Positions 27,794 through 51,316 of a DNA stretch of 64,000 nucleotides are shown here, piece by piece. A model generated the notes under the pieces. It did no database searches, was not told the DNA's origin, and saw nothing but the letters and a program-made list of their open reading frames with translations. Source of the DNA: Pontibacter indicus (GTDB lineage Bacteria; Bacteroidota; Bacteroidia; Cytophagales; Hymenobacteraceae); the NCBI RefSeq assembly GCF_900156345.1, contig NZ_FTPP01000001.1, forward strand, positions 1,426,001 to 1,490,000, read 5' to 3'. The position numbers were made by a program, and so were the translations under genes. Position 1 is the first letter of the stretch, and the number at the start of each line of letters is the position of its first letter.

Positions 27794-27918
27794 GTTTTCG
27801 CAGCTGATTTTTTGCCGGACTTATACTCCTAAACCTCCCAGTTGCTCAATGAAAGAGCAGTATTCGCAAGAGAAAGTACAATAGCATTCACGAAAATTAT
27901 CCCCTTGAGAGAAAAGCC

Positions 27919-28051
27919 GTTTCATTCCAGGTAATTCTCCCCTTGAGGGGAGCGAAGAGGGGTGTTTACATCTGCAAGGAGATCTCAAGTTGGCTACATA
28001 CTGGATTTTTGGCTTTGAATTTACACCCCTATAATCCCCTCAAGGGGATAG
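27919..28051 (-). mobile_element. MITE-like palindromic element (nuclease-free copy, about 133 bp)
   Basis: Read on the minus strand it begins CTATCCCCTTGAGGGG and then ATTATAGGGGTGTAAA (complement of 28020-28051). It ends with ACACCCCTCTTCGCTCCCC and then CTCAAGGGGAGAATTACC (complement of 27932-27966), plus GAATGAAAC. The same order, with about 80 percent identity in the right part, recurs at 48681-48814. A further fragment, TATCCCCTTGAGAG, lies at 27898-27911. The gap 27794-28113 contains nothing else that I can support; an open frame through the repeat is not a gene. Confidence 0.7.
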
Positions 28052-46468: not shown

Positions 46469-47944
46469 ATGGAAAACATTATCAGTTCGGTGAACGACAT
46501 CGTTTGGAGCAACGCACTTATCGTCCTTTGTCTGGGGGCAGGTGTGTACTTCTCGTTCGCCACCAAATTCCTGCAGATTCGCTATCTCCGCGAAATGCTG
46601 CGCCTGCTCTTTACGGGGCAGTCCTCTAACAAGGGCATCAGTTCTTTTCAGGCTTTCACCGTAGCCATTGCCGGACGGGTAGGTACCGGTAACATTGCCG
46701 GTGTCGCCACAGCTATTGCGATGGGCGGACCCGGGGCTGTGTTCTGGATGTGGGTGATTGCCTTCCTGGGCAGTTCGTCTGCCTTTATCGAGGCCACGCT
46801 GGGCCAGATTTACAAGCAGGTAAAGGATGGCCAATACCGTGGCGGCCCGGCCTACTACATCGAAAAAGGACTTGGCGTAAAGTGGTATGCAGTCGTGTTT
46901 GCTGTGGCTACCATCATCAGCATGGCCCTGTTCCTGCCGGGTGTGCAAAGCAACAGCATCGCCTCCGGCATGAGTACCGCTTTCCAGATTCCGGTGGCCT
47001 ATACGGGCGGTGCCGTTACCTTGCTGCTCGCCCTGATTATCATCGGGGGTGTTAGGCGCATTGGCAACGTGGCACAGATTGTCGTTCCGTTTATGGCGGG
47101 CGCTTATATCCTGATGTCGGTGGTGATCATTCTGATGAATATTTCGGAGGTGCCGGCCATCTTTAAGCTCATCTTCAGCTCTGCCTTCAACCTGGAGCCC
47201 GCTTTTGCCGGTGTGTTCGGTATGGCCATCGCCTGGGGCGTGAAGCGCGGCATCTACTCCAACGAGGCGGGCCAGGGCACGGCACCCCATGCGGCGGCGG
47301 CGGCCGAAGTGAGCCACCCTGCCAAACAGGGTTTTGTGCAGGCTTTCTCTGTTTACGTCGATACGCTTTTTGTTTGCTCTGCCACGGCTTTCATGATCCT
47401 GTTCACAGGACAGTACAATGTGGTAAACCCCGAAGGAGGCTTCCTGGTGGAGAACCTGCCGGGCGTGGCCTTCGGACCGGAATATACGCAGCTGGCTGTA
47501 AGTGAGCACTTCCCGGCACTGGGTAGCGGCTTCATCGCTATATCGCTGTTCTTCTTCGCCTTCACCACCATCATGGCCTACTACTACATCGCCGAAACCA
47601 ACCTAAGCTACCTGAACACCAAAAACAAAAAATGGATGCTGTGGGCGCTGCGCCTGCTTATCCTAGGTGCTACCTTCTACGGCTCCGTGAAGACGGCAGA
47701 ATCGGCCTGGACGTTGGGCGACATCGGTGTGGGACTAATGGCCTGGTTGAACGTGATCGCGATCTTCCTGCTCCGCAAGCCTGCCCTACGCACCCTGCAG
47801 GATTACCTGGCCCAGCGCAAAGCCGGCCTCGACCCGACCTTTGACCCGGAAAAACTAGGCATCAAAAACGCCGGCGACTGGAACAAAGCGATCGGTGTTG
47901 ATGAAGAGGAAACAATGGATCAAAGAGAATTGAAAGCGGTTTAG
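46469..47944 (+). CDS. Alanine/glycine:cation symporter (AGCS family)
   Basis: A 491-residue inner-membrane Na+ (or H+)-coupled amino-acid symporter. The AGCS signatures are QAFTVAIAGRVGTGNIAGVATAIAMGGPGAVFWMW (split, residues 61-95), GGPAYYIEKGL and AWGVKRGIYSNEAGQGTAPHAAAAAEVSHPAKQG in the 250-290 region. About 10-11 membrane helices are evident. The C-terminal tail is cytoplasmic. It probably imports alanine, glycine or D-alanine. A palindrome 75 bases upstream and a strong terminator downstream mark it as a single-gene unit. Confidence 0.93.
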   Translation: MENIISSVNDIVWSNALIVLCLGAGVYFSFATKFLQIRYLREMLRLLFTGQSSNKGISSFQAFTVAIAGRVGTGNIAGVATAIAMGGPGAVFWMWVIAFLGSSSAFIEATLGQIYKQVKDGQYRGGPAYYIEKGLGVKWYAVVFAVATIISMALFLPGVQSNSIASGMSTAFQIPVAYTGGAVTLLLALIIIGGVRRIGNVAQIVVPFMAGAYILMSVVIILMNISEVPAIFKLIFSSAFNLEPAFAGVFGMAIAWGVKRGIYSNEAGQGTAPHAAAAAEVSHPAKQGFVQAFSVYVDTLFVCSATAFMILFTGQYNVVNPEGGFLVENLPGVAFGPEYTQLAVSEHFPALGSGFIAISLFFFAFTTIMAYYYIAETNLSYLNTKNKKWMLWALRLLILGATFYGSVKTAESAWTLGDIGVGLMAWLNVIAIFLLRKPALRTLQDYLAQRKAGLDPTFDPEKLGIKNAGDWNKAIGVDEEETMDQRELKAV

Positions 47945-48029: not shown

Positions 48030-48590
48030 CTATCCCTTTGAGGGGATTATAGGGGTGTTCTTTTCGATATACAAAGCCAGCAATATGCACAATCAACCTC
48101 TCTCACAGAACTTAAAAATCCAGCCCTTTGTCTGAGTTTTAGAGCACCAGATATTAGTAAATACCAGGTATGAAAAAGAACACCATTATACCTTACAGAG
48201 AAAATCTCAAAGACAAAGCAAGGGAGCTAAGAAAAAACAGTACACTTGCTGAGGTGCTTTTATGGCAGGAAATAAAGGAGCGAAAACTAATGGGTTTCCA
48301 ATTTCACAGGCAGGTACCTATGCTAGATTATATTGTTGACTTCTACTGTCATGAATTACGACTAGCAATTGAGATAGATGGGGATAGCCATGATTACAGC
48401 TTTGACTATGATGTAAAGCGACAGTCAGAGTTGGAACGGTACTGGGTAAAGTTCCTAAGATTTGATGATATCGAAATCAAGAAAAATATCCAAAATGTAC
48501 TGCGAACATTAGAGCATTGGATCACTGAGAACAAGTGATATGGTCTGTGCATGATTACACCCCTATAGTCCCCTCAAGGGGACAATTCCG
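48030..48590 (+). mobile_element. Candidate DUF559-encoding mobile element (about 560 bp)
   Basis: The left end CTATCCCTTTGAGGGG and then ATTATAGGGGTGT (48030-48058) and the right end ACACCCCTATAGTCCCC and then TCAAGGGGACAATTCC (48558-48589) bracket the nuclease gene at 48170-48538. Each end holds a CCCCTTGAGGGG-type palindrome plus an AGGGGTGT box, in inverted orientation. The same left and right ends, without the gene, form the elements at 27919-28051 and 48681-48814. The unit lies between the AGCS terminator and hrpB. Mobility is inferred, not shown. Confidence 0.6.
48170..48538 (+). CDS. DUF559 endonuclease-domain protein (PD-(D/E)XK/Vsr-like fold)
   Basis: A 122-residue protein. RENLKDKARELRKNSTLAEVLLWQEIKERKLMGFQFHRQVPM (residues 10-51) is the DUF559 N-terminal part. 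YIVDFYCHELRLAIEIDGDSH (residues about 54-74) carries the Asp and Glu expected for the nuclease metal site, and VKFLRFDDIEIKKNIQNVL closes the domain. The fold is related to very-short-patch repair endonuclease. Composition is clearly more AT-rich than the flanking genes. It is enclosed by inverted palindromic repeats, suggesting that it acts on them, as RAYT transposases do on REPs; that role is my inference. Confidence 0.85.
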   Translation: MKKNTIIPYRENLKDKARELRKNSTLAEVLLWQEIKERKLMGFQFHRQVPMLDYIVDFYCHELRLAIEIDGDSHDYSFDYDVKRQSELERYWVKFLRFDDIEIKKNIQNVLRTLEHWITENK

Positions 48591-48680: not shown

Positions 48681-48814
48681 CTATCCCCTTGAGGGGATTA
48701 TAGGGGTGTAAAGTCGGCAATATGGTGCCATGAATTGGCCAATTTGAAATTTACACACAGATGCAAACACCCCTCTGCGCTCCCCTCAAGGGGAGAATCC
48801 CGTTGAATGAAACA
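48681..48814 (+). mobile_element. MITE-like palindromic element (nuclease-free copy, about 134 bp)
   Basis: It starts CTATCCCCTTGAGGGG and then ATTATAGGGGTGTAAAG (48681-48713), and ends ACACCCCTCTGCGCTCCCC with TCAAGGGGAGAATCC and GAATGAAAC (48768-48813). The internal AAGTCGGCAATATGG resembles AAGCCAGCAATATGC just inside the left end of the DUF559 unit. It is collinear with the reverse complement of 27919-28051. Confidence 0.75.
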
Positions 48815-48816
48815 GC

Positions 48817-48846
48817 CCTAACCTTGAGGGGACCACTGGGGTGTAA
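48817..48846 (+). repeat. Solo degenerate end of the palindromic element
   Basis: CCTAACCTTGAGGGG followed by ACCACTGGGGTGT is a diverged left-type end (palindrome plus GGGGTGT box), directly beside the preceding copy. It overlaps no gene; hrpB ends at 48860. Confidence 0.6.
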
Positions 48847-48859
48847 TCATTCACAAACA

Positions 48860-51316
48860 TCACTGAGCAGTCCGCTCCCACTCCACCTCCGGAAACACCA
48901 CCTCCAGTTGCCGCTTGATCACGCGGTAATTCCCTTTCCAGAAACTTGCCAGATCCGACACGGTGGTGATCGGCTTGAGCTCCGGGGTAAGCAAAGCCAG
49001 CTCTACCGTCATCTCACCATCGTCCATTGTCGGGCTTTCCTCCCAGCTCAGCACATCCTGTAATCGTATCTCCAGCCTGGGTTGAGCGCCATCCGGCTTA
49101 TACTCTAGCTCGATCGATGAACCGTCCGGCAGCGTCAGATTTGCCGGAGCCAGTACGTCTAGCCTTGCCCGTTGCTCTTCATTCAGATACTTCTTTTCCA
49201 GGATCGGCAGCAGCTCCAGTTCCATCAGCTCGTCGGGGTGCTCGATGTCGTAGAGGTAGGGCTTCAGCCAGTCCCAGTTGGTGATGAGCAGCGTGGAGGT
49301 GCTCACGTCGGGCCAGAACTCGGAGGGTCGCCATTTGCGGAGGCTCATCACGCGGTTTTGCCATTGCGTGAGCTCGTGGTTGAAGTCCAGCAGGTGCTCG
49401 CCTTCTGCTTTGATGGCCTCGGACATGGCGGGCACGCGGTGCTTCTCGTCGGGAGGTGGCAGCGGCTTGCTTTGCAGCACGATGCTGCCGATGCGCGTGT
49501 CCAGCGAGGCGGTGAGTTCGCCGTCGTTCACGTCCCAATGGTAGACTTCCTGCTGCTTGAGCAGCGGAGCCAGGTCGCGGGGATTGAGCGGCGAGGCCAG
49601 GAAAATGCGGCCGGGGTTGTCGCCGGTGCCGGCATGCATATGCGCCACGGATAGCCAGGGCTCGTGCGCCAGTTCGTCTCTGTGACCGGCGGAGGCATAC
49701 TGTCCGCTGGCCAGTTGGAACTGCGCGTTGTTGCCGGGGCGGGCGTAGGCGATGCGCTCCGGGTAGCAATGCGCCAGCAGCACACCGGTTTCATACTCGT
49801 CGAAAGTGCCGTTGTCCGGCTCCACTTCAAACAGCTGGTGGTACGAGCGGGCAATCTTCTCTATCTTGCCGAAACGCTTGCCCTGCCCCTGCTCGGCTCT
49901 ATACCTACGCAGTGCTTCCACTCTTAAATTGATGTCGATGCCGGCGTTGCGGTCCAGCGGGTCGCGCTCTTCCAGTACGGCGGCAATATCGGAGGCCAGC
50001 GGCACCTGGTCGGTTTCCTCGGCCTTGAGCAGCATGTGCGCGATGCGCGGGTGGCAAGGCAGCCGGTGCATGTTCTGGCCGTGCTCCGTGATACGGCCGT
50101 GCTCCAGCGCCTGCAGCTGGTGCAGCATGTCGGTGGCATAGGCCAGGGCGGCGCGCGGCGGCGGGTTCAGCCAGGTAAGGCCCCGGATATCGGTGATGCC
50201 CCACTGGGCCATGTCGAGCACCAGCGAGGACAGGTCGGCTTCCATGATCTCGGGGGTGCGGTGCGGGGCCATGCGCTCCTGCGTGGTTTTGCTCCACATG
50301 CGGTAAGCCGTGCCCGGACCCAGTCGCCCTGCCCTGCCGGCACGCTGGTCGGCGGCGTCTTTGGAGATGCGCGCTGTTTCGAGACGCGACAAACCGGACT
50401 TCGGGTCGAAGCGGGAAGTCTTGCCGAAGCCCGTATCCACCACCACCGAAATGCCTTCTATGGTTAAGCTGGTCTCGGCTATACTGGTGGCCAGCACCAC
50501 TTTGCGCCTGCCCTGGCGGTCGGGCATGATGGCGGCGTACTGCTTGCCGAAGGGCAGCATGCCGAACAGCGGGTGTATCTGCACGCCGCGCAGCTGCTTG
50601 CGAAGTATGATTTCAACTTTCCGGATGTCGTTTTCGCCGGGCAGGAACACGAGGATATCGCCTTCCTGCTCCTGCGCTGCCTGCTGCACCACTTTGGCCG
50701 TCATTTCGGGCAGCATGCGGTCGTCGGCGTCGCCGGTATAAATGGTGTTGATGGGGTATTGCCGCCCCATACTTTGCGCCACCGGGGCCTTGAGCAGGCT
50801 CGTGAGCTGGGGCATGTCCAGGGTGGCCGACATCACCATGATGCGCAGGTCCGGGCGAAGCGCCTGCTGCGCCTCCCGACTCAGGGCCATGGCCACATCG
50901 GCATGGATGCTGCGCTCATGAAACTCGTCGAAAATCACGATGCCGATGCCCGTCAGCGAGCGGTCGCTGTGGATCATACGGGTCAGGATGCCCTCTGTTA
51001 CGACCTCGATGCGGGTGGCGGCGGAGGTGCGGTTCTCGAAACGGATGCGGTAACCGACGGTCTGGCCTACCTCCTCGCCCAGCAGCTGCGCCAGGCGCTC
51101 GGCAATGGTTTTAGCCGCCAGGCGCCGGGGCTCCAGCATCACGATCTTCTGATCTTTCAGCCAGGGCTCGTCCAGCAAAGCCAGCGGCAGCAAGGTGCTT
51201 TTACCGGCTCCGGGAGGGGCGTTTACGATCAGCGTGTTCTGCGCCGAAAGGTGCTTCCTAACGGCAGGTATAATTTCCCGAACGGGTAAGTCTATGGTAA
51301 ATGGGTTGAAGGGCAA
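48860..51316 (-). CDS. hrpB: ATP-dependent helicase HrpB
   Basis: An 818-residue DEAH-type helicase. Walker A is NAPPGAGKSTLLPLAL (residues 33-48), motif II is IFDEFHERS, motif III is MSATLD, and motif VI is QRAGRAGRLGPGTAYRMW. The HrpB-specific C-terminal domain includes REWERTAQ-like ends and PVTLDLTWPG-type regions in diverged form. It is an RNA or nucleic-acid helicase of unsettled role. Length is typical. It starts at ATG 51316, at the border of the AT-rich island, and its 3' end abuts the palindromic repeat cluster. Confidence 0.92.
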   Translation of the reverse strand: MPFNPFTIDLPVREIIPAVRKHLSAQNTLIVNAPPGAGKSTLLPLALLDEPWLKDQKIVMLEPRRLAAKTIAERLAQLLGEEVGQTVGYRIRFENRTSAATRIEVVTEGILTRMIHSDRSLTGIGIVIFDEFHERSIHADVAMALSREAQQALRPDLRIMVMSATLDMPQLTSLLKAPVAQSMGRQYPINTIYTGDADDRMLPEMTAKVVQQAAQEQEGDILVFLPGENDIRKVEIILRKQLRGVQIHPLFGMLPFGKQYAAIMPDRQGRRKVVLATSIAETSLTIEGISVVVDTGFGKTSRFDPKSGLSRLETARISKDAADQRAGRAGRLGPGTAYRMWSKTTQERMAPHRTPEIMEADLSSLVLDMAQWGITDIRGLTWLNPPPRAALAYATDMLHQLQALEHGRITEHGQNMHRLPCHPRIAHMLLKAEETDQVPLASDIAAVLEERDPLDRNAGIDINLRVEALRRYRAEQGQGKRFGKIEKIARSYHQLFEVEPDNGTFDEYETGVLLAHCYPERIAYARPGNNAQFQLASGQYASAGHRDELAHEPWLSVAHMHAGTGDNPGRIFLASPLNPRDLAPLLKQQEVYHWDVNDGELTASLDTRIGSIVLQSKPLPPPDEKHRVPAMSEAIKAEGEHLLDFNHELTQWQNRVMSLRKWRPSEFWPDVSTSTLLITNWDWLKPYLYDIEHPDELMELELLPILEKKYLNEEQRARLDVLAPANLTLPDGSSIELEYKPDGAQPRLEIRLQDVLSWEESPTMDDGEMTVELALLTPELKPITTVSDLASFWKGNYRVIKRQLEVVFPEVEWERTAQ

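Follow-up and report, generated by a model that had tools for sequence, protein, structure and literature searches.

The window, a stretch of 64,000 nucleotides (C8:1426001-1490000) of the Pontibacter indicus genome (G000; 4.57 Mb in 8 contigs), carries at 48170-48538 on the plus strand the gene of a DUF559 (PF04480) protein of 122 aa, P0001, a Vsr-like PD-(D/E)XK nuclease. From a reading of the open reading frames, we take its neighbours to be a sodium:alanine-type symporter gene (46469-47944) and a HrpB-type helicase gene (48860-51316, minus strand). The nuclease gene is the sole open reading frame between two inverted ends, each consisting of a hairpin and a G-rich tail: a left end at 48034-48058 on the plus strand (CCCTTTGAGGGG-ATTAT-AGGGGTGT), with the hairpin facing outward and the third-strand tail inward, and a right end at 48557-48581 on the minus strand (CCCCTTGAGGGG-ACTAT-AGGGGTGT). 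Its GC content is 37.7%, compared to 52.4% for the window. An initial sequence-only reading had described the unit as two ends of palindrome and box facing each other across a single AT-rich nuclease gene, which is correct except that the left palindrome is imperfect, with one mismatch; in sister species (L123, L147) it is a perfect CCCCTTGAGGGG.

Two gene-free pairs of ends lie in the same window. The adjacent one consists of a left end at 48685-48709 (plus strand; AYTAT spacer) and a right end at 48767-48793 (minus strand; AGCGCAG spacer), and the segment 48679-48799 folds into one long DNA hairpin (z -4.2). The distant one consists of a left end at 27939-27965 (plus strand; AGCGAAG spacer) and a right end at 28023-28047 (minus strand; ATTAT spacer), and likewise folds into one long hairpin (z -3.9); TCCCCTTGAGAG at 27900-27911, immediately to its left, is a decayed half-end. 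Gene-free versions thus exist at 27939-28047 and 48685-48793 as had been proposed, but they do not have the same two ends as the gene-bearing unit: each combines one A(T/C)TAT-spacer end with one AGCG(A/C)AG-spacer end, whereas the gene is enclosed by two AYTAT ends. A decayed rightmost end (CCTTGAGGGG-ACCACT-GGGGTGT) is found at 48822-48844 on the plus strand, and its right-hand context is that of the single end present at gene-less orthologous sites (L117, L118).

Perfect CCCCTNNAGGGG palindromes occur five times in the window versus 0.10 times expected, a number reached by 0 of 100 shuffles. The entire 4.57-Mb genome contains 14 strict ends, and none matching a reversed control pattern; one gene is flanked by them. 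When the window was scanned for inverted flanks, a score of at least 20 was obtained at 1 of 417 positions, namely P0001. Chance pairing of gene and ends is ruled out by these window and shuffle controls, together with the off-target controls given below. A known RNA family is likewise ruled out: the Rfam matches all lay below the gathering score, are taken as chance and fall mostly on the host terminator.

P0001 matches the DUF559 profile with 106.9 bits (cut-off 20.6), and its AlphaFold2 model has a pLDDT of 90.6. The model matches 3hrl, a DUF559 protein of Neisseria gonorrhoeae (Z 15.8), the catalytic domain of the homing endonuclease I-Bth0305I (3r3p, Z 12.0), which was matched by sequence profile as well (E 1.3e-6), and Vsr (1cw0, Z 9.5). 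Fourteen residues are invariant across 45 relatives (R21, T25, E28, W32, F45, R47, Q48, D57, F58, E68, D70, G71, D81 and R97), and P0001 retains all of them, including E28, D57, E68, D70, G71 and D81, as well as the nearly invariant H74. Where computable, dN/dS against orthologues was 0.05-0.10, a signature of purifying selection on the gene. Given the fold match, the conserved residues and the low dN/dS, P0001 is very probably an active, maintained nuclease, although no cleavage has been observed. DUF559 is a widespread and functionally obscure domain. One DUF559 protein of Caulobacter, VsrA, acts on genome integrity; it causes a DNA-damage response in the absence of ScmA methylation and has been proposed to be a repair endonuclease (PMC12907096). 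An anti-phage defence gene was considered and rejected, as PADLOC gave no match for P0001 and only weak matches of a paralogue to homing endonuclease and restriction models; a phage origin was rejected too, PHROG matches being weak only.

By sequence, the ends are conserved as hairpins. Among 100 distinct A-type ends (the type found in the window), the base pair outside TCCCC...GGGGA is G-C in 56, A-T in 22 and C-G in 21, with one exception, i.e. 99% paired versus 41% expected if both sides varied independently. As these copies are related, the counts do not represent independent events; three pair types have nevertheless been kept, and from this covariation we infer selection on the hairpin. 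The G-rich tail moreover mirrors the purine arm in every family listed: the arm, read 3' to 5', and the tail are GGGGA and GGGGT in family A, GGGGAGGAA and GGGGTGGTT in family C, and GGGGGAGAGG and GGGGGTGAGG in family D. A mirror tail (G.GC and A/T.AT triads) was present in 34.8% of 678 hairpin orientations versus 2.8% with shuffled tails. For 175 tail-bearing ends the tail perfectly matched its own arm in 82% of cases and that of another, equally long hairpin in 4%; these ends had been preselected for a good match, so that the contrast between own and other arms is the informative part. The tail can thus be predicted to fold back as the third strand of an intrastrand triplex. There are no folding data for these ends, but such folding was demonstrated by CD and NMR for a related Escherichia coli motif, in a study that linked these repeats to genome instability and associated no enzyme with them (PMC4666352).

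Of 150 Hymenobacteraceae genomes, 134 contain DUF559 genes, with up to eight copies each. We compared the left flank with the reverse-complemented right flank for 58 stand-alone loci of the family and obtained a median score of 37.8; mismatched flanks scored 11.5, and flanks compared as direct repeats 12.5. With 400-bp flanks, scores of at least 20 were reached at 52 of 58 DUF559 loci versus 2 of 232 off-target positions in the same loci. This score undercounts in-frame insertions, because their two ends differ from each other, and a structural test was therefore used, which requires an inverted pair of hairpins with tails of triplex architecture at most 350 bp from the DUF559 domain. Such pairs were found at 157 of 224 DUF559 loci of Bacteroidota and Proteobacteria (six sets; 50 of 58 in the family set) and at none of 923 control positions; at least one triplex-type end lay near 220 of the 224 loci versus 65 of the 923 control positions in the same loci. 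The six sets overlap slightly, a few loci of one family having been fetched twice, which does not affect the contrast. For proteobacterial loci alone, scores of at least 20 were obtained at 46 of 77 loci versus 1 of 291 off-target positions; these loci had been found with one Azospirillum protein and the sample leans to its relatives. Eight loci from annotated records were also examined: the inverted hairpins around the gene are clear in Azospirillum, Sinorhizobium, Sphingomonas, Qipengyuania and Deinococcus and weak in Neisseria and Picosynechococcus, and E. coli ycjD has no such ends. The weakly flanked N. gonorrhoeae gene (L234) is probably that of the solved structure 3hrl.

Repeats of the kind predicted on both sides of DUF559 genes by the sequence-only reading were hence found across the family and the phylum. 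That reading would have failed had the repeats been equally common away from DUF559 genes, which they are not, neither at the control positions nor in genomes devoid of the matching gene (median of 2 versus 22 copies, see below). Three features go beyond it: the third-strand tail, the occurrence of the pairing in Proteobacteria and other phyla, and copies inserted in frame within housekeeping genes. A second DUF559 gene of P. indicus (L009 1449-1967; G000:C7:1231843-1232148) is framed by different, B-type inverted hairpins (ACCTCCCCCCGGCCCCCTCCTAAAAACAGGAGGGGGAG and its inverse).

Listing the hairpins in DUF559 flanks revealed several end families, A to F and others: A, CCCCTTGAGGGG; B, CCCCCTCC-TAAAAACA-GGAGGGGG; C, CCCCTCCTT-GTCT-AAGGAGGGG; D, CCCCCTCTCC..GGAGAGGGGG; E, CCCCTCCTCAGATGAGGAGGGG; and F, CCCCTCCTCGGAGGGG. 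Mapped onto a tree of the 62 DUF559 proteins whose ends could be assigned clearly to a single family (20 of 82 loci lacking the identical family on both sides were excluded), the 10 labels required 9 changes, which is the minimum; shuffled labels required 40.2 on average, and 0 of 200 shuffles were as low as 9. Each DUF559 clade is thus tied to its own end family, to judge from the tree, and several genomes (e.g. G018) hold paralogues of different clades, each with its own ends. Orientation relative to the gene also differs by clade, with the hairpin facing out in A, E, F and G and the tail facing out in B, C and D, a difference which any single common excision mechanism must explain. B-type ends at five loci (L372, L376, L378, L384, L389) lie directly against one gene's stop codon and the end of the following gene, and the pairs there contain a terminator-like hairpin that is either carried by the unit or is the enclosed terminator of the host.

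A rival explanation holds that the ends are merely terminator-like or REP hairpins spread by an unrelated process, with small genes landing between them at insertion-tolerant intergenic sites: most ends do lie at gene ends, near terminators, and some B-type pairs enclose a host terminator. We find this explanation barely credible, given the absence of inverted triplex pairs from all 923 control positions in the same loci, the mere 14 strict ends in the genome, the perfect agreement of end label and protein tree, and the recurrence of the same framing inside coding sequence.

The number of ends likewise follows the gene. In the genus (50 genomes), carriers of an A-clade gene (defined as at least 66% identity to P0001) have a median of 22 A-type ends versus 2 in non-carriers (Mann-Whitney p = 7e-5, only a guide since related genomes are not independent samples). 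Ends without the matching gene do occur: G107 has 82 A-type ends beside a protein of no more than 57% identity, and in G111 23 C-type ends persist with no evident C-clade gene. This is expected if ends outlive genes, and ends can indeed outnumber or outlive them.

These counts also bear on the possibility that the unit is mobilised in trans by another enzyme (a RAYT or IS200-type Y1 transposase, or RecA-dependent repeat recombination), with DUF559 as a cargo that benefits. Some Y1_Tnp-like match is present in 43 of 50 genomes of the genus, the P. indicus genome having two weak ones, and loss at the window locus, described below, resembles deletion between directly repeated ends. However, three genomes (G038, G071 and G101) possess 48, 21 and 19 A-type ends, respectively, and A-clade genes without any Y1_Tnp (PF01797) match; end families follow the DUF559 tree with the minimum of changes, which is not expected of cargo; and the ends lack the GTAG tag of RAYT-associated REPs. 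Based on these data we consider mobilisation in trans unlikely, and a RAYT acting in trans is rejected as a requirement, not being needed in those three genomes. The weak Y1_Tnp-like reading frames seen across the genus are of about 180-220 aa and number one to nine per genome (e.g. G000:C7:973476-973679 and G000:C5:82761-82949).

Presence and absence at orthologous sites, a further prediction of the initial reading, was borne out at three sites: the window locus, an intergenic site and MetH. At the window locus, the unit is present in four genomes of the genus (G000, G071, G101, G111), while only one end remains in two others (G105, G046), bordered on the left by the sequence that precedes the unit and on the right by the sequence that follows the rightmost end, and neither unit nor end was found there in G091 and G099. 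In a tree of the flanking gene, G000 and G071 group with the one-end species and G101 and G111 stand apart, which requires either more than one gain or else loss through recombination of directly repeated ends; the two cannot be distinguished. G081 (L120) differs in its downstream DNA at the orthologous locus, yet retains a left end in decayed form and a right end of AGCG type. The intergenic site lies 3' of a conserved gene of 437 aa, and is occupied in species of the genus by a B-type, C-type or F-type unit, and in others by gene-free C-type pairs, a solo double-tailed palindrome, or nothing. The solo palindrome (L393, G109:C55), situated about 70-135 bp past the 437-aa gene, is nearly perfect, about 66 bp long (CCGGTTCCAACCACCCCTAACCCC...GGGGTTAGGGGTGGTTGGAACCGG) and has tails on both sides of one hairpin; it may be what remains of a C-type unit after collapse or joining of its ends.

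DUF559 was also found in frame within other proteins. According to Pfam, the hosts are MetH (in a linker and at the C-terminus), LeuRS (two sites), RecQ (N-terminus), a UvrD-type helicase, a PD-(D/E)XK protein, HsdR, HsdM and an Eco57I-type enzyme. Translation runs through the bordering ends (...PHPQPLSHGEG - DUF559 - PSPRERGQGG...), and neither a stop nor, by Pfam, an intein domain was found in the in-frame copies (MetH, RecQ, LeuRS and others). Within one genus the MetH linker is filled in three genomes (G063, G037, G022) and empty, with a length of 29 aa, in ten others; an in-frame MetH insert measures 160 aa. Almost every genome of the family has MetH (59 of 60), and the filled state is therefore derived, by insertion and not by loss elsewhere. 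The junctions of the MetH and intergenic sites showed no clear target-site duplication, though against diverged empty alleles. Together, these sequence comparisons show that the complete unit is variably present at orthologous positions, also as an in-frame insertion in MetH. The same MetH linker has been hit repeatedly in different bacterial families (L026, L027, L033, L226, L232).

Such a distribution has to be set against the view that DUF559 is a host genome-maintenance nuclease which processes extruded hairpins or triplexes in a Vsr-like repair, the flanking substrate serving as an autoregulatory or recruitment device. The Vsr-like fold, the repair role proposed for Caulobacter VsrA (PMC12907096) and the link of triplex motifs to genome instability (PMC4666352) would all suit this view. 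A copy number of one to eight that is patchy within one genus, in-frame insertion in unrelated housekeeping genes, and several clades with different ends per genome fit poorly with a fixed host function, and we regard it as quite unlikely.

Our preferred explanation is that the unit is a small selfish REP-like element, composed of a Vsr-type nuclease gene between hairpin/triplex ends built on short C/G hairpins. We hold this to be probable, with cleavage and transposition inferred, not observed. In this model the ends would become single-stranded or extruded, for instance during replication, and the nuclease would recognise the folded hairpin or triplex and nick at or near the end, thereby releasing or exposing the unit. 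A break in the target, be it a resident end or a gene end or linker, would then be repaired with the element as template, and such template repair would multiply both gene-bearing and gene-free copies. The process would resemble homing, with ends like those of REPs, and the gene-free pairs would be non-autonomous derivatives that are acted on in trans. Movement of the unit by the nuclease itself is inferred. The single-end alleles at the window locus suggest homing into a resident end. The empty MetH alleles contain no resident end, and homing into existing ends can therefore not be the sole route; insertion at naive sites must be possible. The relation of the fold to a homing endonuclease makes a cut-and-copy route plausible, and the hairpin ends, by analogy, recall single-strand transposition by RAYTs. 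We lean towards cut-and-copy over RAYT-like single-strand transposition without making a firm choice.

The unit shares much with REP/RAYT systems (REPtrons; IS200/IS605-derived TnpA-REP): short dispersed hairpins that are often paired as inverted doublets, a single dedicated gene between inverted copies of them, an enzyme family that tracks the hairpin family, and known intragenic copies. The initial proposal of REP/RAYT logic with a nuclease in place of the transposase is supported by the association, the presence/absence data and the end-copy counts. The enzyme, however, is a Vsr-like PD-(D/E)XK nuclease instead of a Y1 HUH transposase, the ends carry G-rich third-strand tails ((A)GGGG(T/A)G) and no conserved GTAG tag, and there are genomes with DUF559-type ends but no Y1_Tnp. 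As in intrastrand triplex motifs (TM/ITxF; Holder et al. 2015, PMC4666352), the order is pyrimidine arm, loop, purine arm, spacer and purine third strand; proteobacterial ends are nearly the same sequence (GGGAGAGGGTTAGGGTGAGGG type), and both occur as inverted pairs. Unlike those motifs as described, without an associated enzyme, DUF559 ends delimit a nuclease-bearing unit. CGTC-tagged REPs and Rickettsia palindromic elements, which were reported without a dedicated transposase (PMC3733652), are also short palindromes found in frame inside genes as well, but DUF559 ends carry no CGTC tag. A link to CGTC REPs was looked for and rejected, the CGTC core being near just 2 of 65 proteobacterial DUF559 loci. 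In IS/MITE pairs, too, versions with and without a gene have inverted ends in common; in contrast to these, there is no transposase, no target-site duplication was recognised between the diverged alleles, and the ends are hairpin-and-tail units, not simple terminal inverted repeats. With the EDxHD homing endonuclease I-Bth0305I and Vsr the unit has in common the fold, the profile match to I-Bth0305I and the nature of a selfish nuclease gene. It differs from homing endonucleases in having no intron or intein and standing alone in the window, and from the I-Bth0305I/Vsr group in consisting of a single small domain that lacks DNA-binding extensions, in its flanking repeat ends and in its many unrelated insertion sites. 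Matches to this Vsr-like fold (Z 8.6-9.5) extend to proteins from the mitochondrial ribosomes of Toxoplasma and Tetrahymena.

The unit is thus not a RAYT, an insertion sequence, an intein or an intron. As it fails the tests for a RAYT/REPtron (enzyme, tag), for an intron or intein (splicing) and for an IS/MITE (transposase), we rate it as a new type of element; on a stricter view, it could be called a variant of REP-like selfish systems until nuclease-driven movement is shown. REPs, triplex motifs, DUF559 and homing endonucleases are each already known separately. We know of no publication linking DUF559 to such ends, and a search of the open-access literature (subscription journals were not covered) yielded no paper that connects DUF559 to REP or triplex repeats, in agreement with the initial reading, which had regarded the pairing as undescribed. 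With only a little more belief than doubt, we propose a broad, unnoticed class of bacterial transposable element, in which a Vsr-type nuclease gene between intrastrand-triplex ends is moved by that nuclease, which would be the missing enzyme behind the abundant triplex and REP repeats of many phyla. Elements of this class would be able to enter essential genes in frame, with no need for splicing. For another REP class, the missing dedicated transposase has been stated as an open question (PMC3733652). Linking DUF559 with triplex/REP-like repeats offers a candidate role for both, and predicts, in testable form, a specific nuclease-end pairing for each DUF559 clade.

The in-frame copies in MetH, LeuRS and RecQ provide natural cases of a nuclease domain inside these enzymes, unspliced as far as can be told from sequence. 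The LeuRS insertions lie at two places (L207, L210, L370). The in-frame hosts are rich in DNA-processing enzymes (UvrD-type, RecQ, PD-(D/E)XK, HsdR and Eco57I type; L352-L358, L360-L365, L367-L369), and the same host bias has been noted earlier for intragenic REPs (PMC3733652).
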